Assembly (NCBI GenBank): GCA_029865345.1
Contig: JAOUHD010000006.1
Span: 1-50,882, forward strand
DNA: 50,882 nucleotides
Reading direction: 5' to 3'
DNA from: Nitrospira sp.
Lineage (GTDB): Bacteria > Nitrospirota > Nitrospiria > Nitrospirales > Nitrospiraceae
A program made the position numbers and the translations under genes. The notes under the pieces were generated by a model, which ran no database searches, was not told the origin of the DNA, and saw nothing but the letters and a program-made list of their open reading frames with translations. Positions 35,306-49,464 of this stretch are shown here, piece by piece (the first letter of the stretch is position 1; the number at the start of each line of letters is the position of its first letter).

Positions 35306-37816
35306 TTACCCTTCGACCTTTTCCACCAGAATCCGATAATGCGATGCTTCCGGTTCCAGGGCCTCTTGGATCAGCACCTTGTGTCCGTCGTTCTTGAGGC
35401 TCATCGGCACATTCTTGATCGGCTCGCCCGCATCGAGCCACACTTCTAGCGTCTCACCTGCATCCATCATTTCCAGCTTCAACTTGGTCTTCACATAGTT
35501 CATGGGGCAGGCGACGCCACGGAGATCGTAGACCGGTGCGCCGGTCGGAGCCGGAGCCGAAGGTTTCACCTCGGTGACGACCGGCGTGACCTGCGCTGCA
35601 ACGTCCTTCACTGGAACTGCCGCCTCTTGGACCGGAGCAAGCTTCAAATCTTTCCCCATCTGTTCTGTTGCAGCTCGGCATGCTTCAACGAAACCCTTGG
35701 CAAACACCATCTTTTCACGTGCCGACTCGGCGGTCGTATCCTTTGGACCGAGATCGCCGACCTTCTTATTGAGCTCTCGATATTGCGCAGGGATGACCCC
35801 TTTCTGCGCAATCCGGCTGTCAAATTCAATGAACGTTTCCGAGTCGGTCGACGGCTCAAGCCCTTCGGTCACCAACATCGCCTTCGCCGCGGCCAACACC
35901 GCGCGATAGGATTTGTTCACCGACACGGAATACTGGTGGTTCTCGACCAGCAACTTAGCTTGATACAGTTCTTGATCGGCTTCCAGGATGCCATTTTCGA
36001 TCATCTCCAGCGCGCCACCGGCACATTCCCCGGGGCCAAGATCTTCAAGGATAAATTCGTCCTCCCCTTCCCAGTCATAGTAGAAGGTGGAATCCTCCTT
36101 GAAGGTTGGAACGATCGTGTACGGAATCAGCTCATCCTTCAACTTACTCTTACCCATGCGGGTGATGAAATTCGGCAAATTCTCATTTGGTTGACGATCA
36201 CGCCGGTACACATCGATCAAATGGGAAAGCGCGGCCGGTACAGCTTTCGCCGGCAGCTTCACGATCATCTGCCCGATCTTGGCCGTGCCGTTCACTGACC
36301 CACCAAGATGGAGCTCGTAGTGTGGGGCCACGTGGTCACCAAGTCGTTTGCCGACTCCATGCAGTCCAATCGTTGAAATGTGATGCTGCGCGCAGGAGTT
36401 ATGACAGCCGCTGATTTTGATATCGACGCCTGCCAGATCTTCCAGCACACGACCAGGGGGAAACACTTCAGCCAACGCCCTCGCAAGTCCCTTGGACGAC
36501 GTAATACCGAGTCCGCAGGTATCAGTACCGGGGCACGCAATAATGTCTTCGACCAGCTCAGCACCAGGATCCGCCAACCCGCGAGATGCCAAATCCTCGT
36601 ACAGATCGGCAATCCGATCGCCAGGAATCCATCGAATCACCATATTTTGATTGATGGTGGTGCGGAGATTTCCGTTTGAATAACGCTCAGCCAGATCAGC
36701 GACGAAGAGCATCTGTTCAGCCGTAAGATCCCCCATGAACAGCTTGATGGCGGCTGTGACGTAGCCCTCCTGCTTCTGTTTCACAACATTGGTCCGTTTC
36801 CACATCTCAAACGGTGTCTCATGACCGATTGTGATGGCCCCATTGCCATTACCGTTCCCGTTTCCAGATACCAGACCATTTTTCGTGGGCATGAGGAGCG
36901 GAGGGGGCTCATCCTGATACTGAAGCAGGGTCAACGGTCCGTTCTTGGGAAGCGTGTGTCCCATGCCGACATAGGCTGCTTCCCAGCGTCGTTTGAATTC
37001 CTCAAAACCCAGCTTGTCGATGACGAACTTCATCCGGGCCTTGTTTCTATTTTTTCGATTGCCGAGGGTATCGAAGACTTTAATCACGGCTTCGATACTG
37101 GGAATCAGTTCCTCCATCGGTGTGAACTCACGGAGCAGTTGGGCAATCCGTGGAGCAGAACCCAAGCCGCCACCTGCCACCATTCGAAAACCGACGACTC
37201 CGTCAGCTCGTTTGACGGCCAGTAGGCCGATATCGTGAATCGGGGTCAGCGCACAATCATGTTTGCAGCCGGAAAACGCAATTTTGAACTTTCGCGGCAG
37301 ACTTTGGTTCAAGGGGTTCCGTAGCAGGTGGTATGCGACCGTCTTTGCATACGGAGTCACATCAAACACCTCGCCTTGGCACACACCAGCTAAGTGGCAG
37401 GCCGTCACATTCCTCACAGTATTGGCGCAAGCCTCTCTGGTAGTCAGTCCAACCTCGGCTAACCCTCGCATGATGGTCGGCACGTCCTTCAATTCCACGA
37501 AGTGCAGCTGGACATCTTGTCTCGTCGTGACATGACCGACTCCGGTCGCATAGCGGTCGGTGAGCTCCGCCACACGTCGCAGCTGATTCGCATTGAACCC
37601 GCCGAACGGAATCTTGATCCGCACCATCTGCACACCAGGTTGGCGCTGCCCGTAAATGCCATACTGCAGGCGGAAAGGCCTGAAGAGATCAGTAGAAATC
37701 TCCCCAGCCAATGTTCGCAGCGCTTCGGCCTCAAAGGTTTCTATTTCCTCCAGAATGGCGGGAGGGATCGGACTCGTGACAATTTGAGGGCTCGTGACGG
37801 CTTTAATGTGGTTCAT
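35306..37816 (-). CDS. Siroheme sulfite/nitrite reductase fused to a TusA-like domain
   Basis: Six-electron reduction of sulfite to sulfide (by context; nitrite possible). The 836 residues begin with a half-repeat (FGGFNANQLRRVAEL near 71-85) holding Cx5C and Cx3C at C140/C146 and C184/C188. A Gly-Asn linker (318-326) leads to a second half with the same spacing at C428/C434 and C471/C475, the usual siroheme/4Fe-4S ligands. Residues about 590-720 are helical and resemble a HEPN-type segment. From 760 a TusA-like domain has its cysteine at 770 (RGVACPMN). The ATG has AGGAGA 8 bases upstream. It is the second gene of the rrf2-led operon; cysH follows it by 15 bases. Confidence 0.92.
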   Translation of the reverse strand: MNHIKAVTSPQIVTSPIPPAILEEIETFEAEALRTLAGEISTDLFRPFRLQYGIYGQRQPGVQMVRIKIPFGGFNANQLRRVAELTDRYATGVGHVTTRQDVQLHFVELKDVPTIMRGLAEVGLTTREACANTVRNVTACHLAGVCQGEVFDVTPYAKTVAYHLLRNPLNQSLPRKFKIAFSGCKHDCALTPIHDIGLLAVKRADGVVGFRMVAGGGLGSAPRIAQLLREFTPMEELIPSIEAVIKVFDTLGNRKNRNKARMKFVIDKLGFEEFKRRWEAAYVGMGHTLPKNGPLTLLQYQDEPPPLLMPTKNGLVSGNGNGNGNGAITIGHETPFEMWKRTNVVKQKQEGYVTAAIKLFMGDLTAEQMLFVADLAERYSNGNLRTTINQNMVIRWIPGDRIADLYEDLASRGLADPGAELVEDIIACPGTDTCGLGITSSKGLARALAEVFPPGRVLEDLAGVDIKISGCHNSCAQHHISTIGLHGVGKRLGDHVAPHYELHLGGSVNGTAKIGQMIVKLPAKAVPAALSHLIDVYRRDRQPNENLPNFITRMGKSKLKDELIPYTIVPTFKEDSTFYYDWEGEDEFILEDLGPGECAGGALEMIENGILEADQELYQAKLLVENHQYSVSVNKSYRAVLAAAKAMLVTEGLEPSTDSETFIEFDSRIAQKGVIPAQYRELNKKVGDLGPKDTTAESAREKMVFAKGFVEACRAATEQMGKDLKLAPVQEAAVPVKDVAAQVTPVVTEVKPSAPAPTGAPVYDLRGVACPMNYVKTKLKLEMMDAGETLEVWLDAGEPIKNVPMSLKNDGHKVLIQEALEPEASHYRILVEKVEG

Positions 37817-39863: not shown

Positions 39864-41792
39864 ATGAAGATATCGATCAAAGACGGTCCAAGCGGTGACA
39901 TTCAGGCTGGGGTGACAGTGGGTGGCGCTCTGTCTGGCCTAGGTGTCGTTGACCGGGATATTCTAGCAGCTAAAGTAGACGGAGCGGTTGTTGATTTGTC
40001 GTCCGCACTGTCTGGAAATTCAGTCGTCGAAACACTGCGGTTCGACAGTGCAGAAGGCCGTGAGGTGTACCGTCACAGCAGTACCCACCTCATGGCCCAG
40101 GCAGTCAAGGAACTCTTCCCGTCGGCACAACTGACCATCGGCCCAGCCCTGGAAGATAGTTTCTATTACGACTTCGCCTTCGAACGCCCCTTTACTCCCG
40201 AAGACTTGCAGAGAATCGAAGAACGCGCTGCTGAAATTATTAAGCGTAACCTCGCTATCACAAGGCGGGAGTTTTCAAAACAGGATGCGATAGATTTTTT
40301 CACGTCCCGTGGAGAGCACTATAAGGTCGAGCTAATTCAAGGCTTCCCCGATGGAGAGCCAATCACCGCCTACACACAGGGTGACTTCGTGGATCTCTGT
40401 CGTGGCCCCCATCTTCCTACTACCGGTGTCATCGGAGCTATAAAATTGCTCACCACAGGAGGGGCCTATTGGCGTGGCGATGAACGTAATCCGATGTTAC
40501 AGCGGATCTACGGAACATCCTTTCCGACACAAGCGGAAGTGGATGCCTACATGGCCAGGCTTGAGGAAATTAAGCGACGTGACCACAGAAAAGTTGGAAA
40601 AGATTTGGATCTGATCAGCATTCAGGATGAAATTGGACCCGGGCTGGTCCTGTGGCATCCAAAAGGTGCGACAGTCCGCCTGTTGATTGAAAATTTCTGG
40701 CGAGAACAACATATTCGAGACGGATACCAGCTGGTCTATTCACCGCATACCGCACGCCTCGATCTCTGGAAAACCAGCGGGCACCTCGATTACTACCGGG
40801 AAAACATGTTCCCATCGATGAAGCTGGAAGGCAGTGAGTACCAGCTGAAACCGATGAACTGTCCGTACCACATCATGATCTACCAATCTCACCTGCGTAG
40901 CTATCGAGACCTCCCTATTCGCTATGGGGAACTCGGAACGGTCTACCGCTATGAACGGACCGGTGTGCTGCACGGGCTCATGCGGGTACGCGGATTCACG
41001 CAGGATGATGCCCATCTCTTCTGCCGCCCGGATCAAATGGAACACGAGGTCAGCCGGGTCCTGGACTTTACATTTTTCGTCTTGCAGACATTCGGGTTTC
41101 ACCAATTTGACGTCTTTTTGTCGACGCGGCCCAAAGAGTCTGTGGGCAGTGATGAACATTGGACCTTAGCCACCAGTGCATTGGAAGCAGCCCTGAAGAG
41201 TCGAAACATCTCCTTCCACCTCGATTCTGGCGGGGGGGCATTTTACGGCCCGAAGATCGACATTAAGATCAAAGATGCGTTGGGCCGCTCGTGGCAATGT
41301 TCCACGGTCCAGGTGGATTTCAACAATCCAGAGCGGTTTGAGTTAAATTATATTGGAGAAGACGGAAAAGCGCATCGCCCAATCATGATTCATCGCGCCT
41401 TGATGGGATCCATCGAGCGTTTTTTCGGTATCCTGATTGAACATTACGGAGGTGCGTTCCCAGCCTGGCTGGCTCCGGTGCAGGCCGTCGTCATGAACAT
41501 CACCGATCATCAGCACGACTACGTGGCGGCCGTCGTGGCGCAATTGAAGGCGGCTGGCTTTCGTGTCGAGCCTGATCTCCGGAACGAAAAGATCGGATTC
41601 AAGATTCGCGAAGCGGAAAAGGCGAAAGTCCCATTCATGTTGGTCGCGGGGAATCGTGAAATGCAGGATGGGACTCTCTCGGTACGAGGCCGAAGTGGGG
41701 CAAATTTAGGGAGCAAGACAGTGGCTGAAGTGTTGGATCTCCTGCAAGCCGAGGTCACGCACACACAGCGAGAACTTCAACCCGCACATTAA
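39864..41792 (+). CDS. thrS: Threonyl-tRNA synthetase
   Basis: Charges tRNA-Thr. The 642 residues carry the TGS domain (1-60), the editing domain with HSSTHLMAQAV (about 71-81) and its zinc-like site, and a class II catalytic core with motif 2 RYGELGTVYRYERTGVLHGL, zinc ligands in PMNCPYH and motif 3 near PIMIHRALMGSIERF. A C-terminal anticodon-binding domain completes it. The length is typical. The ATG at 39864 has a poor ribosome site. First gene of thrS-infC-rpmI-rplT. Confidence 0.97.
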   Translation: MKISIKDGPSGDIQAGVTVGGALSGLGVVDRDILAAKVDGAVVDLSSALSGNSVVETLRFDSAEGREVYRHSSTHLMAQAVKELFPSAQLTIGPALEDSFYYDFAFERPFTPEDLQRIEERAAEIIKRNLAITRREFSKQDAIDFFTSRGEHYKVELIQGFPDGEPITAYTQGDFVDLCRGPHLPTTGVIGAIKLLTTGGAYWRGDERNPMLQRIYGTSFPTQAEVDAYMARLEEIKRRDHRKVGKDLDLISIQDEIGPGLVLWHPKGATVRLLIENFWREQHIRDGYQLVYSPHTARLDLWKTSGHLDYYRENMFPSMKLEGSEYQLKPMNCPYHIMIYQSHLRSYRDLPIRYGELGTVYRYERTGVLHGLMRVRGFTQDDAHLFCRPDQMEHEVSRVLDFTFFVLQTFGFHQFDVFLSTRPKESVGSDEHWTLATSALEAALKSRNISFHLDSGGGAFYGPKIDIKIKDALGRSWQCSTVQVDFNNPERFELNYIGEDGKAHRPIMIHRALMGSIERFFGILIEHYGGAFPAWLAPVQAVVMNITDHQHDYVAAVVAQLKAAGFRVEPDLRNEKIGFKIREAEKAKVPFMLVAGNREMQDGTLSVRGRSGANLGSKTVAEVLDLLQAEVTHTQRELQPAH

Positions 41793-41806: not shown

Positions 41807-42313
41807 ATCGTTCCCAAATTGCGTGTGAATCGTGAGATCCGAGTCCGAGAAATTCGTGTCATTGGCCCGGAAGGAGAACAACTCGGCATCCTTCAGACGC
41901 CGGACGCCTTTCGACAGGCTCAGGAAGGGGGCTATGACTTGGTGGAAGTAGCTCCTAACTCCACCCCCCCGGTCTGTAGAATTATGGACTTTGGGAAGTA
42001 TAAGTATGAGTTGAGCAAAAAGGACCATCAAAGTCGGCGCCATCAAAAGTCCACGCAGGTGAAGGAAATCAAGTTGCGGCCACGGACCGATAAACATGAC
42101 CTTGAAATTAAAGTTCGGCAGATGAAAACATTCCTCGAAGAGGGTAATAAAACCAAAGTCACCCTCACGTATCGCGGGCGGGAGATGGCCAATCAGGAAA
42201 TGGGGCGAGCCGTGATGAATTCCGTCATTGAACAATTGGCGCAAGCCGGCACCATCGAGTATGCCCCCCGCATGGAGGGACGAAGTTTGATTATGATTGT
42301 GGCGCCCAAATAA
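41807..42313 (+). CDS. infC: Translation initiation factor IF-3, probable ATC start
   Basis: Prevents premature subunit joining and checks the initiator tRNA and start codon. About 168 residues: N-domain (VNREIRVREIRVIGPEGEQ), linker rich in Lys, C-domain (VKEIKLRPRTDKHDLEIKV, MAGRS-like EGRSLIMIVAPK). No ATG, GTG or CTG lies in frame near the beginning. ATC at 41807 stands 3-5 bases after AAGAGGTGG, whereas the TTG at 41819 is about 16 bases away. An AUU or AUC start is the known means by which IF-3 represses its own synthesis. Lies 14 bases after thrS. Confidence 0.93.
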   Translation: MVPKLRVNREIRVREIRVIGPEGEQLGILQTPDAFRQAQEGGYDLVEVAPNSTPPVCRIMDFGKYKYELSKKDHQSRRHQKSTQVKEIKLRPRTDKHDLEIKVRQMKTFLEEGNKTKVTLTYRGREMANQEMGRAVMNSVIEQLAQAGTIEYAPRMEGRSLIMIVAPK

Positions 42314-42355: not shown

Positions 42356-42550
42356 ATGAAGATGAAAACGCATAAAGGGACAAGCAAGCGATTTGCCAAG
42401 ACCGGAAGTGGGAAAATCGTCCGCCGCAAGGCGGGCAAGCGGCACATACTGACCAGCAAGCGGCACGACCGAAAGCGCCGCCTGAGCGGGTCCACGGTCG
42501 TCGACCCGACAGTCACCGCGTCGTTGAACCGGCTGCTCCCGTACGCATAG
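42356..42550 (+). CDS. rpmI: 50S ribosomal protein L35
   Basis: A 64-residue, very basic large-subunit protein beginning MKMKTHKGTSKRF, with GKRHILTSKRHDRKRRL in the middle. ATG at 42356 has AAAGGA 7 bases upstream. The classic position between infC and rplT confirms it. Confidence 0.97.
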   Translation: MKMKTHKGTSKRFAKTGSGKIVRRKAGKRHILTSKRHDRKRRLSGSTVVDPTVTASLNRLLPYA

Positions 42551-42603: not shown

Positions 42604-42972
42604 ATGCCTCGCGCTAAGGGTGGGCCAAAAACTCGGCAACGGAGAAAGAAGCGGATTAAGCTGGCGTCAGGCCAGTACGGCGGAAAGAGTCGGCTCTTCC
42701 GTTCAGCGACAGAAAGCGTCGACAAGGGGCAGACATATGCCTATACGGGCCGCAAGAATCGGAAGCGAGATTTCCGGCAATTGTGGATTGCCCGCATCAG
42801 CGCCGGCGTTCGGGCCCAAGGGCTAACCTACGGACGGTTCATCAACGCGCTCAAGAAAGCCAATGTGTTGTTGGATCGGAAGGTCTTGTCGGATATGGCC
42901 ATCAAGGATGCGGCGGGCTTTGAAAAGTTGTGCGGCCTTGCCAAGCAACACCTGACTCCTGTCGCTGCATAA
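42604..42972 (+). CDS. rplT: 50S ribosomal protein L20
   Basis: A 122-residue early-assembly 23S rRNA-binding protein. It has the basic N-terminal extension (RQRRKKRIKLASGQYGG), RKRDFRQLWIARISAGVR and LSDMAIKDAAGFEKL. AAAGGAG precedes the ATG. In other bacteria L20 represses the infC-rpmI-rplT transcript; I could not pick out such a site here. Converges on pheT. Confidence 0.97.
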   Translation: MPRAKGGPKTRQRRKKRIKLASGQYGGKSRLFRSATESVDKGQTYAYTGRKNRKRDFRQLWIARISAGVRAQGLTYGRFINALKKANVLLDRKVLSDMAIKDAAGFEKLCGLAKQHLTPVAA

Positions 42973-42998: not shown

Positions 42999-43034
42999 GA
43001 AAGGGGAGCCGGCAATGTGTCGTCTCCCCCTTTC
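42999..43034. terminator. Bidirectional terminator between rplT and pheT
   Basis: GAAAGGGGAG pairs with CTCCCCCTTTC (one bulged C) around a 15-base loop. The AAA/TTT at the base of the stem is suitable for both strands. Confidence 0.65.
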
Positions 43035-43059: not shown

Positions 43060-44778
43060 CTACCCAAGCCCAATCAGCTGCGAGAGGTTCAGGTCGAACG
43101 CCACGACCGGCATGGAGATCTGCCAACGCTCGAGGACTTCTGGATGGACTTCGCCGATGACGCCGACCGGCTTGCCCGAAACGAGAATGCGGCCAGCACG
43201 CCCTTCCAGAAAGGATGGATGCTGCACTGGCTCAAGGCTATAGTCCTTGCCGAGGTAGTAACACAGCACATCCAGACAGGAATGGATTTCTGAGAAATGG
43301 GTGGTGGCGTGCGCGATCAAGGCGCCTATCATGGTTTCAGTTCGAGACCCCAACTCGTGGGTCCCATCGGGAATCGCCACATCACCGGCCTCGAAGAGGC
43401 GATGGGGGTAGAACGCCCGACTCGAGGCGGCTTCGATACGCAGCAGTGATGGCAGCATCCATTGTCGGAGGCAAGAGAAGCTGAGCGACATGACGTTATT
43501 GACCTCGACTGTCCTCCCCCATTCCGTTCCTTCCAGACGCATAGCACGGCAATACTGGTCCGGTGAGCCGAGAATGTTCGAAATGATTTCCTGAAAGCCG
43601 AGTCCCACCATCAATTCTCTGGATCGATCGGACAGCTGCTCAATGGCAGATAATCCTCCCACTGTAAATTGAGCCGGCATGACAGGGGTAAACTCGGCAT
43701 ATCCACGACTCATGGCGACGTCTTCAACCACATCCATCGTATGCATGAGATCATGGCGGTATGGTGGGAGCTTGGCCTTCACCGACCCCTTTTCTGCCGA
43801 CACGTCATACCCATAGGCCTCAAGAGCCTGCTTCACCATTGCCTCGCCGAGCTCCTGGCCCAATGCCTGTTCAATCGCTTTCATCTGAATGGTCACTGGC
43901 TTCCCGAAATCTTGAGGTGTTGTGACCCGTGTGCCCAGTACCGTGCTCGTTGGATATCGTACTTCCACCGGCTCGATGGTTGCGCCGCGGTCGGCCAAAT
44001 TTGCCGCGAAGATGTTCAGCGACAGAATCACCATGCGCAGGTCTGTCCCGGTCACTTCGACGAAGAGCTCATCATCACCCACCCGTACCTCTCCGATTTC
44101 CCGGCTATTGATAATCGGGGGAAAGGACAACGGTTGAGCCTTCGCATCTCGAAGGATGGGGAGCAAACTTTGGACGGCCAAGATAGGCCCATACTCCAAC
44201 CCCTTGGGATGAACCATGAGAATTTCCGATAGGGTCATCGCCGTTTCCATACCCAGCGGGGTAAACCGCACTTCGTCCGGTTTCACCAGCTCATAGGTCA
44301 CGGGAAAGGTAATATTGCGCAGTTGGTAGATTCCGATGGAGACGGTCTTGCGCTTCCGCCCAAAGATGTCGGCCAATTTCTCCTGCGTTTGAATCAGCTG
44401 AGCCAACCCCTTCTCAGTCACCCGATATCCCTTGGCCGTACAGGCTGCCACATAGGGGCGCACCTGCTCCATGCCGGGCTTCACGATCAGATGATGCGGC
44501 GACTTCGGTGTTTTGGCGAAGAAGGCATACGGCTTCAACCGGCCTTGCTGCTTGATGCGAATTTGTCGGGCAATCCCCTCGCAACACCAGAGATCCGGCC
44601 GATTACTGTCTTGCAGTTCGATACGCAACTCTCCGGTTTCCGGATTGTGCCCCTTCAGCTCGCCTTTCACGAGCATCAGCCACTCTTCCAACTGAGCCAT
44701 CGGAATGCCACGGTCGATACCGTCCCCACCCGTCAGAAGCGACTCTAAATCGTCCTTGAAAATCGTGATGGTAGGCAT
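43060..44778 (-). CDS. pheT: Phenylalanyl-tRNA synthetase beta subunit, archaeal/eukaryotic type
   Basis: With PheS charges tRNA-Phe. At 572 residues it is far shorter than bacterial PheT (about 800) and has the archaeal/cytosolic plan: a short N-domain (EEWLMLVKGELKG, DSNRPDLWCCEGIARQI), a B3/B4-like editing core (VRPYVAACTAKG), B5 (LGQELGEAMVKQALEAYGYDV) and a catalytic-like C-domain with RLFEAGDVAIPD. The N-terminal tRNA-binding OB domain and the C-terminal anticodon-binding fold of bacterial PheT are missing. It lies 8 bases after pheS and ends the fmt-rsmB-rpe-pheS-pheT run. Confidence 0.93.
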   Translation of the reverse strand: MPTITIFKDDLESLLTGGDGIDRGIPMAQLEEWLMLVKGELKGHNPETGELRIELQDSNRPDLWCCEGIARQIRIKQQGRLKPYAFFAKTPKSPHHLIVKPGMEQVRPYVAACTAKGYRVTEKGLAQLIQTQEKLADIFGRKRKTVSIGIYQLRNITFPVTYELVKPDEVRFTPLGMETAMTLSEILMVHPKGLEYGPILAVQSLLPILRDAKAQPLSFPPIINSREIGEVRVGDDELFVEVTGTDLRMVILSLNIFAANLADRGATIEPVEVRYPTSTVLGTRVTTPQDFGKPVTIQMKAIEQALGQELGEAMVKQALEAYGYDVSAEKGSVKAKLPPYRHDLMHTMDVVEDVAMSRGYAEFTPVMPAQFTVGGLSAIEQLSDRSRELMVGLGFQEIISNILGSPDQYCRAMRLEGTEWGRTVEVNNVMSLSFSCLRQWMLPSLLRIEAASSRAFYPHRLFEAGDVAIPDGTHELGSRTETMIGALIAHATTHFSEIHSCLDVLCYYLGKDYSLEPVQHPSFLEGRAGRILVSGKPVGVIGEVHPEVLERWQISMPVVAFDLNLSQLIGLG

Positions 44779-44786
44779 ACGTGGAG

Positions 44787-46352
44787 TTAGAACAGCCCTC
44801 TGGTCGTGCGGATCAATTCCAGATTGTCGGTGAAAAGTTCGCGGATGTCATGGATGCCCAACGCCACCATCGCCATACGATCAAGCCCCAACCCCCAGGC
44901 AATGACCGGCACAGTGACGCCGAGCGGCAACGTCACTTCGGAACGAAAGAGACCCGCGCCGCCGAGTTCCATCCATCCCAAGCGTGGATGCCGCACATGC
45001 ATCTCGACCGACGGTTCGGTAAACGGGAAATAGGCTGGCAAGAACTTCACTTCCTTCGCTTGGGCCACTTCCCGGGCAAACAAATTCAGGAGCCCCAACA
45101 GCGTCCGAAAGTTGATGTCTTCTCCCAGCACAATCCCCTCCACCTGGAAGAAATCGGTGGCGTGGGTGGCGTCGACTTGGTCATAGCGAAAACACCGGGC
45201 GATCGAGAAATACTTCCCGGGGATCTGTGGCGAGGCGGCAAGCGTTCGAGCCGACACCGCCGTACCCTGGCTCCGCAACACCAACCGTTTAGCCCGATGC
45301 ACATCAAACGAATAGCCCCAGCCTGTGGAACCAGTCTCTGCGCCGTTCTCATGCACCTTGGCCACACGCGACAAGAACGGCTCATCCACGGCGGTGGTAT
45401 GGCTGGGCTCCTTGATAAAATAGACGTCGTGAATGTCCCGAGCCGGATGGAATTGCGGCATGAACAGGGCATCCATATCCCAGAACTCGGTTTCGACCAG
45501 CGCCCCCCGCATCTCCTGGAACCCCATGCTCACAAGTTTAGTTTTGACCGTATCGAGAAATTCGCGATAGGGATGTTTCTTTCCTGTTCCGATACGAGGC
45601 GGGCGCAGACTGATCGTGTACTTTCTCAAGCGCGTCTGACGCCAACTCCCATCCTTCAACAAGTCTGGAGTCAACTGCGAGACTTCTTCAGCAACCCCCT
45701 GCGTCAACAACTGCGCCGCTGCACCGGCTCCGTCCGGTGACAACATAAATGAGCGAGCCACCCGCTCATCCACACGAAACGGTTCCTTGGCATTGCCACG
45801 CTTCACGGCAAAGTCTTCGATGATCTGCCGATGGGCTTCCGTGAAGCTCTTCAGCTCTTTCGGTGAGTCATGCATGTCCCCCAGGAGGGTTCGGAGTGCC
45901 TCGGCAGTCGGGCTCGGGCGTCCAGTTGTTTCGATGCACCCTCCCTGGATGATCAGCACCACCCCTTCCTTTTTCAGTCGTCCGACAGCTTTGCTGACAT
46001 CCGAAGGGTCCAGTCCGCCTTGCGACTGAAGGTCGGGAATAGTCAGTCTCTTCCCGGTGCTCGTAGCTTCCCGCGCAACCTCCAAGACTCGCTCGATGGG
46101 CGAGGTGGTTTGGTGATACTCCTCCCCGATCTTCGTCAGCGAGACGATGGGCGTCACCGTTTCCGTCTGGACCGTGATGAGAGACTTGGCCAATAACCAC
46201 TCGACCGCCATGCTGAGTTGAGACGCCTCCAACTCAGCTGCGCCGGCCAACTGTTCGCTGCCCAGAGCGGTTTCCGACGGACGAAGCCCTAAGGTTGTGA
46301 GTACTTTAATTTCAAGAGGGTGCAGACTGTCGATGAGTGCGGAGATGTCCAC
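44787..46352 (-). CDS. pheS: Phenylalanyl-tRNA synthetase alpha subunit, archaeal/eukaryotic type
   Basis: Catalytic subunit, 521 residues against about 330-350 in bacteria. The first 150-200 residues are winged-helix units as in archaeal and cytosolic PheS (LHPLEIKVLTTLG; DPSDVSKAVGRLKKEGVV). The class II core shows FHPARDIHDVYF, FRYDQVDATHATDFFQVEG and VIAWGLGLDRMAM, all of the archaeal form. It starts 9 bases after rpe. Transfer from, or shared ancestry with, archaea is likely; firm proof needs a tree. Confidence 0.93.
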   Translation of the reverse strand: MDISALIDSLHPLEIKVLTTLGLRPSETALGSEQLAGAAELEASQLSMAVEWLLAKSLITVQTETVTPIVSLTKIGEEYHQTTSPIERVLEVAREATSTGKRLTIPDLQSQGGLDPSDVSKAVGRLKKEGVVLIIQGGCIETTGRPSPTAEALRTLLGDMHDSPKELKSFTEAHRQIIEDFAVKRGNAKEPFRVDERVARSFMLSPDGAGAAAQLLTQGVAEEVSQLTPDLLKDGSWRQTRLRKYTISLRPPRIGTGKKHPYREFLDTVKTKLVSMGFQEMRGALVETEFWDMDALFMPQFHPARDIHDVYFIKEPSHTTAVDEPFLSRVAKVHENGAETGSTGWGYSFDVHRAKRLVLRSQGTAVSARTLAASPQIPGKYFSIARCFRYDQVDATHATDFFQVEGIVLGEDINFRTLLGLLNLFAREVAQAKEVKFLPAYFPFTEPSVEMHVRHPRLGWMELGGAGLFRSEVTLPLGVTVPVIAWGLGLDRMAMVALGIHDIRELFTDNLELIRTTRGLF

Positions 46353-46361
46353 CTAAGCCGC

Positions 46362-47063
46362 CTATTGATGGACCGCGGCGCGTGACGCCGGCGAGATGGC
46401 CATTGATCCAGCCGCCCGCATGGCCGCAATGGTCGCTGTATAGTCGCGTTGGGAGAAAATCGCGGACCCTGCCACGAGGACCGTCGCTCCGGCGGCCACA
46501 ATCTCTCGAGCATTCTCCACTTTGACGCCGCCGTCGACTTCCAGCAGTGCCTGGCTTTTAATCTTGTCCAACAGTGCCCGCGTATCGGCGATTTTCCTAA
46601 GCACCGATGGAATAAACTTTTGCCCGCCGAATCCAGGATTCACCGACATGATCAACACCAGATCGACATCTCCCAAGATCTCCTGAAGCAACGAAAGTGG
46701 CGTCGCAGGATTTAAGGTGACTCCAGCCTTGATCCCCCGTTCCTTAATCGATTGAATGGTGCGATGGAGATGCGGGCAGGCCTCGACATGCACAGTCAAA
46801 TAGTCGGCTCCGGCATCGACAAACTCAGGAATGAACGCATCGGCGTTGGTGATCATCAAATGAACGTCGAGCGGAAGCTTGGTGACTTTTTTGAGACTTT
46901 CGACAATAGGTGGCCCCACTGTCAGGTTCGGCACGAAATGGCCGTCCATCACATCCACATGCAGCAGGTCGGCACCCGCTCGCTCCAATGCGGATACTTC
47001 ATCGGCCAATCGAGCGAAGTCCGCGGAAAGAATTGAGGGGGCGATCTGAATCGAATGACCCAT
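46362..47063 (-). CDS. rpe: Ribulose-phosphate 3-epimerase
   Basis: Interconverts ribulose 5-phosphate and xylulose 5-phosphate (pentose phosphate and Calvin-type routes). It is a TIM barrel of 233 residues with APSILSADF (8-16), the metal-site DVMDGHFVPN, HLMI, MSVNPGFGGQKFI and EVDGGV. The ATG at 47063 overlaps the rsmB stop (TAATG), which fixes the start. A C-terminal tail of about 12 residues, rich in Ala and Ser, goes beyond the usual end. Confidence 0.96.
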   Translation of the reverse strand: MGHSIQIAPSILSADFARLADEVSALERAGADLLHVDVMDGHFVPNLTVGPPIVESLKKVTKLPLDVHLMITNADAFIPEFVDAGADYLTVHVEACPHLHRTIQSIKERGIKAGVTLNPATPLSLLQEILGDVDLVLIMSVNPGFGGQKFIPSVLRKIADTRALLDKIKSQALLEVDGGVKVENAREIVAAGATVLVAGSAIFSQRDYTATIAAMRAAGSMAISPASRAAVHQ

Positions 47064-48481
47064 TATTTCTTCCGTAGGCGGGCGGCATAAAAGCCATCCA
47101 TCCCGCACTCGTTACCTATAGTCGAGAACGCGCCGCAGATGGTCACAAAGGGGAGAGCAGTGGTGGGAAGCCACGGCGCCACAGATTCACGCATCCACCC
47201 AGGATAGGCTTCAAAAAAAGAGGTAATGACCTCTTCCGTCTCTTCCGTCTCCGTTGAGCAGGTACTATAGACCAGCACCCCACCGGGTCGCAAGCAGGAA
47301 GCCACTGAGGCAAGGATTTCAGCTTGAAGTTTCTGGTGCCTGGTGAACGTCGAACTGTCCTTCCGCCATTTCGCTTCAGGGTGTCGGCGCAACACACCCA
47401 ACCCACTGCACGGGGCATCCACGAGTATCCGATCGAATAGCGGCGGTTCCTTATGGAGGTTCGGCCCGCGGGCAATCACCCCGGCCCATTCGGATGGTGT
47501 TCTCACGTCGCCGACGATCGGCACGACACTCCTCACGCCCAACCGTCCACAATTTTGTCGGAGGAGGTCCATACGAAAACTCTTCCGATCAACCGCGTAG
47601 ATCGTTCCACGATCACCCATGCGTTCGGCAAGATGCGTTGTCTTGCCGCCTGGAGCGGCACAGGCGTCCAGCACGGTTTCGCCAGGTTGCGGATCAAGGA
47701 TCCAAGGAATGAGTTGAGCCGCCTCATCTTCCACATAGAAATCGCCAGACTGAAACCCTGGCAACGCCGTGACAGCCTGGCCTTTTTCCAACACCACCCC
47801 AACAGGACTGACGGCGGTCGGATGTGCCGCAATACCTGCCTGCCTCAACTTCTCCAAAAACTCTTCCCTGGTGAGTCGATTGGCGTTCACTCGCAGGGTG
47901 ACACCTGGGGCCGTACTGCTTGCTCGACAAGCCAATTCTGCTTGTTCAAGTCCCATTCGGCCGAACCACCGCTCTGTCAGCCATATTGGGATTCCATACC
48001 GAATAGATAACGATTGAGCCGGATAACTTGCTGGGTCTGGGAAAGGTGGCGCCGGCACACGAACAAGATTGCGCAGGACTCCGTTCACCAACCCGCTCCA
48101 ATCGCGGCCTAATTGTTTCGCGTAGGACTTCGCCAAGAGGACGGTTTCGTTCACCGCTGCGGAAGCAGGGATACGATCGAGAAACAGCAGCTGGTAGGCG
48201 CCAAGCCGCAATAACATTTGGACGACCATCGGCAATCTGTGGAGAGGTTTGGCGAGAACCGCATCAAGCCTCCAATCAACCGTCTCCTGTCGCCGTAAGG
48301 TCCCGTACACCAGTTCCATTACCAGCGAACGGTCACGGGGCTGTGGAATTGATGTGGCTCGTTGTTCGGTCAGCTCATCGAGTGTGTCATCAGTTCGTTG
48401 ACAAGACAGGAGGATAGAGAGCGCGATAGATCGTGGAGAGAGCCCCCGCACATCCGTACCCACCGGTCTTTCGTCACTCAT
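47063..48481 (-). CDS. rsmB: 16S rRNA (cytosine-967-C5)-methyltransferase
   Basis: Methylates C967 of 16S rRNA. Of about 472 residues, the NusB-like N-domain (about 15-150) precedes a Rossmann SAM domain with DACAAPGGKT, VDAPCSGLG and the catalytic YSTCSTETEE. The ATG at 48481 is preferred to TTG at 48493; neither has a good ribosome site. It follows fmt by 41 bases, the standard fmt-rsmB pairing. Confidence 0.95.
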   Translation of the reverse strand: MSDERPVGTDVRGLSPRSIALSILLSCQRTDDTLDELTEQRATSIPQPRDRSLVMELVYGTLRRQETVDWRLDAVLAKPLHRLPMVVQMLLRLGAYQLLFLDRIPASAAVNETVLLAKSYAKQLGRDWSGLVNGVLRNLVRVPAPPFPDPASYPAQSLSIRYGIPIWLTERWFGRMGLEQAELACRASSTAPGVTLRVNANRLTREEFLEKLRQAGIAAHPTAVSPVGVVLEKGQAVTALPGFQSGDFYVEDEAAQLIPWILDPQPGETVLDACAAPGGKTTHLAERMGDRGTIYAVDRKSFRMDLLRQNCGRLGVRSVVPIVGDVRTPSEWAGVIARGPNLHKEPPLFDRILVDAPCSGLGVLRRHPEAKWRKDSSTFTRHQKLQAEILASVASCLRPGGVLVYSTCSTETEETEEVITSFFEAYPGWMRESVAPWLPTTALPFVTICGAFSTIGNECGMDGFYAARLRKK

Positions 48482-48522
48482 ATGTTGGAACAAGGAGATG
48501 GCGACTGTTGTGAAAAGAAGAG

Positions 48523-49464
48523 TTATGCAGCCGGTGAACCCAATTGCATACCGGCCGTGACTCGGTGCCCAGCCAGGAATTGGACTACCGACATGCGTTT
48601 CGAATTGGCCGTTTGGATTTCATGAATCTCAAGAATGCCCTCGCCTGTCGCCACCAGAATCACCTGCTTATTCACCGTGACTATCGTTCCAGGTCTCTCG
48701 GTCGTCGCACCCATAATCGAGACTGCTTTCCATATATTCCAACGCTCCTCACCGAAAAATGTATACGCCCCTGGCCAGGGAGAAAGCCCTCGTGCTCGAT
48801 TGGCAAGCGACGTGGCACTCCTAGTCCAATCGATCAGGCCATCTTCCTTCTTTAAAAGCGGAGCCATGGTTGACCCCGCATCGTCTTGCTTCGTCGGCGC
48901 TATGCTCCCCGCCTTCAGTTGAGCGATCGTTTTGACCAATAACCTCCCACCCAACTCTGCCAGACGTGGTGCCAATGTCCCAGTCGTATCATCAGGCAAG
49001 ATCTCCAGCTGTTCTTGAAGCAACATTGGCCCTGTATCCATCCCCTCATCCATCAACATCGTCGTGATACCCGTTTTGGTCTCCCCATTGATGATGGCCC
49101 ATTGCACTGGAGCCGCACCACGGTATTTGGGCAACAGCGAACCATGCACATTCACGCAGCCCATCGCTGGGAGCCGAAGAATCGGCGTGTGCAGAATCCG
49201 CCCGAAGGCTGTCACGGCGATGAGATCAGGCTGCCAGGCAGAAAGGGCCTGCAAGAACTCGGGTGTACGAATTTTGAGCGGCTGTAGAATAGGAATACCA
49301 GCACGCTCCGCAACCAGTTTCACGGGCGGCGCGACGAGCTGATGACCTCTCCCCTTCGGTCGATCCGGCTGCGTGACGACTCCGACCACTTGATCCTCGG
49401 ATCCAAGGAGCGCCTCGAGCGATGGCACGGCAAATTCGGGTGTGCCCATAAAGACAATCCGCAT
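48523..49464 (-). CDS. fmt: Methionyl-tRNA formyltransferase
   Basis: Formylates Met-tRNA-fMet with 10-formyl-tetrahydrofolate. The 313 residues start MRIVFMGTPEFAVPSLEALL and contain the folate/catalytic region NVHGSLLPKYRGAAP and the substrate loop GMDTGPMLLQ, then a C-terminal tRNA-binding barrel. No def gene is adjacent. The initiator tRNA gene is divergent, 87 bases away. It heads the fmt-rsmB-rpe-pheS-pheT run. Confidence 0.97.
   Translation of the reverse strand: MRIVFMGTPEFAVPSLEALLGSEDQVVGVVTQPDRPKGRGHQLVAPPVKLVAERAGIPILQPLKIRTPEFLQALSAWQPDLIAVTAFGRILHTPILRLPAMGCVNVHGSLLPKYRGAAPVQWAIINGETKTGITTMLMDEGMDTGPMLLQEQLEILPDDTTGTLAPRLAELGGRLLVKTIAQLKAGSIAPTKQDDAGSTMAPLLKKEDGLIDWTRSATSLANRARGLSPWPGAYTFFGEERWNIWKAVSIMGATTERPGTIVTVNKQVILVATGEGILEIHEIQTANSKRMSVVQFLAGHRVTAGMQLGSPAA

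Follow-up and report, generated by a model that had tools for sequence, protein, structure and literature searches.

Gene Organization at the Locus

The window analyzed here is a stretch of 50,882 nucleotides from Nitrospira sp., in which both subunit genes of a phenylalanyl-tRNA synthetase (PheRS) lie on the minus strand, namely pheT at 43060-44778 (572 aa) and pheS at 44787-46352 (521 aa, with a GTG start), with the coordinates and strands of the original prediction confirmed. On the same strand, rpe (46362-47108; TIGR01163, 314 bits) lies upstream of pheS, preceded by rsmB (47063-48493; above cut-off for NF011494/TIGR00563) and fmt (48523-49464; TIGR00460, 309 bits); 8 nt separate pheS from pheT and 9 nt separate rpe from pheS, while rpe abuts rsmB. 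The resulting series fmt-rsmB-rpe-pheS-pheT meets head-on a second series on the plus strand, which consists of thrS (39864-41792; TIGR00418) as the operon's first gene, infC (41819-42313; TIGR00168), rpmI (42356-42550), whose position between infC and rplT is kept phylum-wide, and rplT (42604-42972; TIGR01032), which is convergent with pheT. The thrS-infC-rpmI-rplT operon normally runs on into bacterial pheS-pheT; the proposal that pheST is instead co-directional behind fmt-rsmB-rpe and convergent with rplT agrees with the gene order found.

Within the 87-nt gap between the stop codons of rplT and pheT, an inverted repeat (GAAAGGGGAG...CTCCCCCTTTC) occupies positions 42999-43034 and is assigned to no strand. 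The hairpin has folding z-scores of -3.2 on the plus strand and -2.8 on the minus strand, beating nearly all shuffles on both; a simple terminator scan did not list the repeat, which is likely a terminator common to both operons. The GC and GC3 values of pheS and pheT are similar to those of the neighboring genes, so that a recent transfer, as judged by composition, was ruled out. Elsewhere in the window, positions 35306-37816 encode a protein of 836 aa in which a duplicated nitrite/sulfite reductase is joined to a TusA sulfurtransferase domain at the C-terminus; its gene adjoins an Rrf2 regulator and is found near the operon in other Nitrospira too.

Type of Synthetase and Copy Number

Both subunits are of the archaeal/eukaryotic type, as had been read from their lengths and build. 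PheS scores 563.8 bits against NF003210 (cut-off 350), and PheT scores 462.6 bits against the archaeal model TIGR00471 (pheT_arch; cut-off 282.65) and 117.9 bits against its bacterial counterpart TIGR00472 (pheT_bact; cut-off 402.65), which it fails. In PheT, Pfam detects B5 and CLM but no tRNA-binding domain and no FDX-ACB, in accordance with the predicted absence of both bacterial domains; the overall plan is B1, B3/B4, B5, and CLM (B6/B7), without the B2 OB domain and without the anticodon-binding FDX-ACB (B8). Residues 1-360 of PheT superpose on Pyrococcus horikoshii PheT (2cxi) with a TM score of 0.93, an rmsd of 2.1 Å, and 36% identity, and the superposition shows that the B3/B4 fold is present. 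The class II catalytic core of PheS aligns with human and Candida PheS, and the predicted FHPARD motif is real, occurring as PQFHPARD. Ahead of this core, the AlphaFold model upholds the proposed winged-helix N-domain, in that residues ~1-220 are predicted to form three winged-helix domains (helix-helix-helix-wing units) with pLDDT mostly 80-93 and human cytosolic PheS as the closest fold; for the catalytic half, the model is of low quality and unusable. From family membership, the two genes are inferred to encode a functional PheRS; an α2β2 enzyme of this kind would charge a bacterial tRNA-Phe without the B2 and B8 RNA-binding domains, having instead three predicted winged-helix domains on the α subunit.

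That the genes encode an ordinary bacterial PheRS that was misread, or that they stem from assembly contamination, found no support and is extremely improbable: the HMM scores are archaeal-type, the gene order is conserved in 80 public Nitrospira/Nitrospirales loci, and the GC content is like that of the neighbors, which together refute it. Neither subunit falls within ordinary bacterial PheRS, and the archaeal-type identity stands.

A search of the whole genome with the PF01409 profile returns a single match, and FDX-ACB (PF03147), present in 11 of 14 control genomes, is absent across the genome; by these searches there is no second PheRS, and hence no bacterial-type pheST elsewhere, a point that the original prediction had raised. 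Because the assembly is 94.8% complete and consists of 227 contigs, this absence is strong, not absolute, and the archaeal-type pair is apparently the cell's working and sole PheRS.

Distribution across Nitrospirota

Archaeal-type PheS exceeds its cut-off in 162 of 296 Nitrospirota genomes and bacterial PheT in 119, and no genome among the 296 is above both cut-offs when the two lists are compared by inspection. Several genomes have neither type, and in these the general PF01409 model likewise detects no PheS, which most likely reflects assembly gaps. The archaeal type occurs in families f1-f11, which make up the window's class, and in f12, f13, f16, f19, f20, and f37; the bacterial type occurs in f14, f15, f17, f18, f21-f23, f25-f36, f38, and f39, with f24 being represented by one fragment only. 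Family f20 looks Leptospirillum-like, and the group of f15, f21, f26, and the like looks Thermodesulfovibrionia-like. Among the matches listed, the closest public PheS sequences are 98% identical and belong to Nitrospira MAGs, and the best 80 public-contig matches to PheS are from Nitrospirota only; a search of plasmids and viral contigs for archaeal, spirochaete, or viral relatives yields only bacterial-type or distant matches.

The general pheS model TIGR00468 takes in both kinds (337 bits vs. 237), so that phylogenies built on this marker would combine genes that are not orthologous; in practice, pheT_bact will also appear missing in archaeal-type Nitrospirota genomes.

The bacterial-type enzymes of the phylum are themselves diverse. 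In the Thermodesulfovibrionia-like families (loci L164, L167-L170, and L172-L177) and f18 (L166), PheT is ~680-720 aa long, starts at model position ~157, and is missing the N-terminal B2 OB tRNA-binding domain; PheT without B2 has been reported for many CPR bacteria (PMC5370408). PheT is full, at ~800 aa, in f14, f17, and genome G154. The PheRS of the last of these (L171, f27) is bacterial, full-length, and on a very long branch, and it differs from that of its same-family relative G083, possibly through a separate bacterial exchange. In f14 (L162, L163), a conserved gene of ~152 aa lies between the bacterial-type pheS and pheT, and in Monoglobus (L311) a hypothetical gene also lies between the two.

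Gene Order in Relatives

Gene order was surveyed in 40 genomes and in the 80 public Nitrospira/Nitrospirales loci. The head-on layout of pheST and rplT occurs in f1-f5, f8, f9, and f20, in f19 too with a gap of ~3.5 kb, and generally in the public loci where the contig is long enough. Thus, the arrangement put forward as a special case at one locus is real, but it is common to the class and its neighboring families. In f12, fmt-rsmB-rpe-pheST is intact and rplT does not adjoin it; in the sampled genomes of f6, f7, f10, and f11, rplT is on another contig or in another region. The flanks of pheST in f16 and f14 share no genes that could be seen.

Bacterial pheS lies directly behind rplT, in collinear order, in f17, in f18, and in the Thermodesulfovibrionia-like f15, f21, and relatives. 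Since this order is found on both sides of the organism tree, it argues for being the old state. In f37 (L161, L181), the order thrS-infC-rpmI-rplT-pheS-pheT is likewise collinear, and there the pheST genes are archaeal-type, which makes f37 an in-place replacement at the rplT-pheST slot. The original prediction had envisaged a replacement at the native locus followed by a flip; archaeal-type genes right behind rplT do exist, unflipped, in f37, but the window's genes are convergent with rplT, and the flip there is a matter of interpretation. A flip of the Nitrospira pheST at the native locus is plausible, and an inversion would explain the head-on layout but is not required by it; flipping at the slot and translocation beside it are indistinguishable, because in f12, f6, f7, f10, and f11 rplT lies apart from pheST.

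The tRNA-Phe Genes

All 39 tRNA-Phe genes surveyed have a bacterial body, with A73, the anticodon GAA, and either U or C at position 20. The archaeal signature G20, reported as an element in Aeropyrum pernix and yeast (PMC9976931), is absent among them, the lone apparent G being a shifted reading of genome G271. The pair 27-43 is G-C in all bacterial-type genomes read and C-G, G-U, or G-C in archaeal-type genomes; this pair and position 20 are variable only in the latter, which, for the few lineages concerned, may reflect relaxed constraint at 27-43. The acceptor stem GGGCAGU is common to f37 and the Thermodesulfovibrionia-like families. A pattern search did not recover the tRNA-Phe of the genome to which the window belongs, probably because of an assembly gap.

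Phylogeny and Number of Changes in PheRS Type

An unrooted rpoB+rpoC tree clusters f1-f13, f19, and f20 (though not f14), and places f16 beside the bacterial-type f14 and f37 beside the bacterial-type Thermodesulfovibrionia-like clade, both with support 100; the deep nodes and rooting of this tree are weak, and the branches of f12 and f20 are long. In f20 (L302, L303), the rpoB frame is ~1720 aa, ~400 aa beyond that of the rest of the phylum. Mapped onto the tree, PheRS type requires at least three changes, and a single clade of all archaeal-type lineages is rejected (AU p=1.6e-5, 18 taxa). In the archaeal-type PheS+PheT tree, the 39 Nitrospirota rows group together (99/97), with human, Candida, and a single fragment from P. 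horikoshii as the sole outgroup sequences, and f16+f37 (93/82) stand opposite the remaining Nitrospirota; single-subunit trees are concordant in their main groups, with PheS alone poorly rooted. In the bacterial-type tree, which roughly tracks the organism tree, f14+f17+f18 form one group (83/81) and the Thermodesulfovibrionia-like families another (98/92).

The reading considered probable, with good confidence, is that the archaeal-type pair, now apparently the sole PheRS, was gained on the Nitrospiria side of the phylum, that the bacterial pair was lost, and that f16 and f37 underwent replacement likewise. In this sequence of events, the ancestor of Nitrospiria and neighboring families would have acquired an archaeal-type pheS-pheT pair, the bacterial pair first located behind rplT would then have been lost, and the acquired pair would have ended up as the last genes behind fmt-rsmB-rpe, oriented towards rplT; PheRS of this type would also have displaced the bacterial one in f16 and, within the exact rplT-pheST slot, in f37. 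Several observations count against this order: f16 and f37 fall outside the rest in the PheRS tree, which fits an archaeal-type ancestor with later bacterial regain too; the deep rpoBC nodes are weak; and f12 has no rplT neighbor, so the slot scenario is not forced for Nitrospira.

It is accordingly conceivable, but unlikely, that the archaeal type is ancestral to all Nitrospirota and that bacterial PheRS was regained several times, in f14, f17, f18, and the Thermodesulfovibrionia-like clade. Among carriers only, the archaeal-type gene tree does fit the organism tree (f16+f37 versus the rest, in the same rpoBC half), and the archaeal-type lineages are basal on the weakly rooted rpoBC tree; however, f17, f18, and the Thermodesulfovibrionia-like families have the classical rplT-pheS order, it is improbable that bacterial genes returned several times to precisely this position, and the bacterial-type gene tree roughly tracks the organism tree. 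Similarly doubtful is a phylum ancestor that had both kinds, of which each lineage then lost one (homeoallele sorting): vertical descent is roughly consistent with either gene tree and PheRS type is patchy across the tree, but dual carriers are seen in 0 of 296 genomes.

In a broader proposal, offered tentatively and somewhat less likely than not, the two PheRS kinds act as interchangeable alleles; the archaeal-type pair would have entered Nitrospirota once and then passed from lineage to lineage, displacing the bacterial pair on at least three occasions (cleanly in the native operon slot in the case of f37) and meeting on each occasion a tRNA-Phe whose body is bacterial.

Comparison with Known PheRS Systems

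Archaeal-type PheRS, with both subunits together, is known from Spirochaetaceae (Borrelia, Treponema, Spirochaeta), in which α is 513-528 and β 514-573 in length and whose sister group keeps the bacterial kind (Andam & Gogarten 2011, PMC3191353), so the spirochaete precedent invoked for the locus is sound. A published account of archaeal-type PheRS in Nitrospirota was not found in the open-access literature, subscription papers being beyond the scope of the search. Nitrospirota are a second, larger, and patchier case of archaeal-type PheRS in bacteria after Spirochaetaceae, extending it from one spirochaete family to a large group of ecological importance that includes nitrite oxidizers, comammox Nitrospira, and their kin, and showing the PheRS swap recurring within one phylum. 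Moreover, f37 and its bacterial-type neighbors provide a natural before/after pair in which an essential enzyme was exchanged without co-transfer of the tRNA.

The Nitrospirota case resembles that of Spirochaetaceae in having archaeal/eukaryotic α and β subunits in a bacterium, in their lengths, and in a sister group with the bacterial kind; it differs in belonging to another phylum, in covering one class and several further families through multiple switches, and in the presence of archaeal-type genes in the rplT slot of f37. With archaeal/eukaryotic cytosolic PheRS (P. horikoshii 2cxi, human 3l4g, Candida 8s8b) it shares the domain plan, catalytic motifs, and PheT fold, but its host is bacterial and its tRNA-Phe is bacterial, without G20. 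In common with bacterial PheRS (Escherichia coli, Thermus thermophilus) it has the presumed reaction, the α2β2 plan, B5 and CLM, and the vicinity of rplT; unlike them, the Nitrospira enzyme is without B2 and B8, winged helices replace the coiled coil of α, and pheST is reversed.
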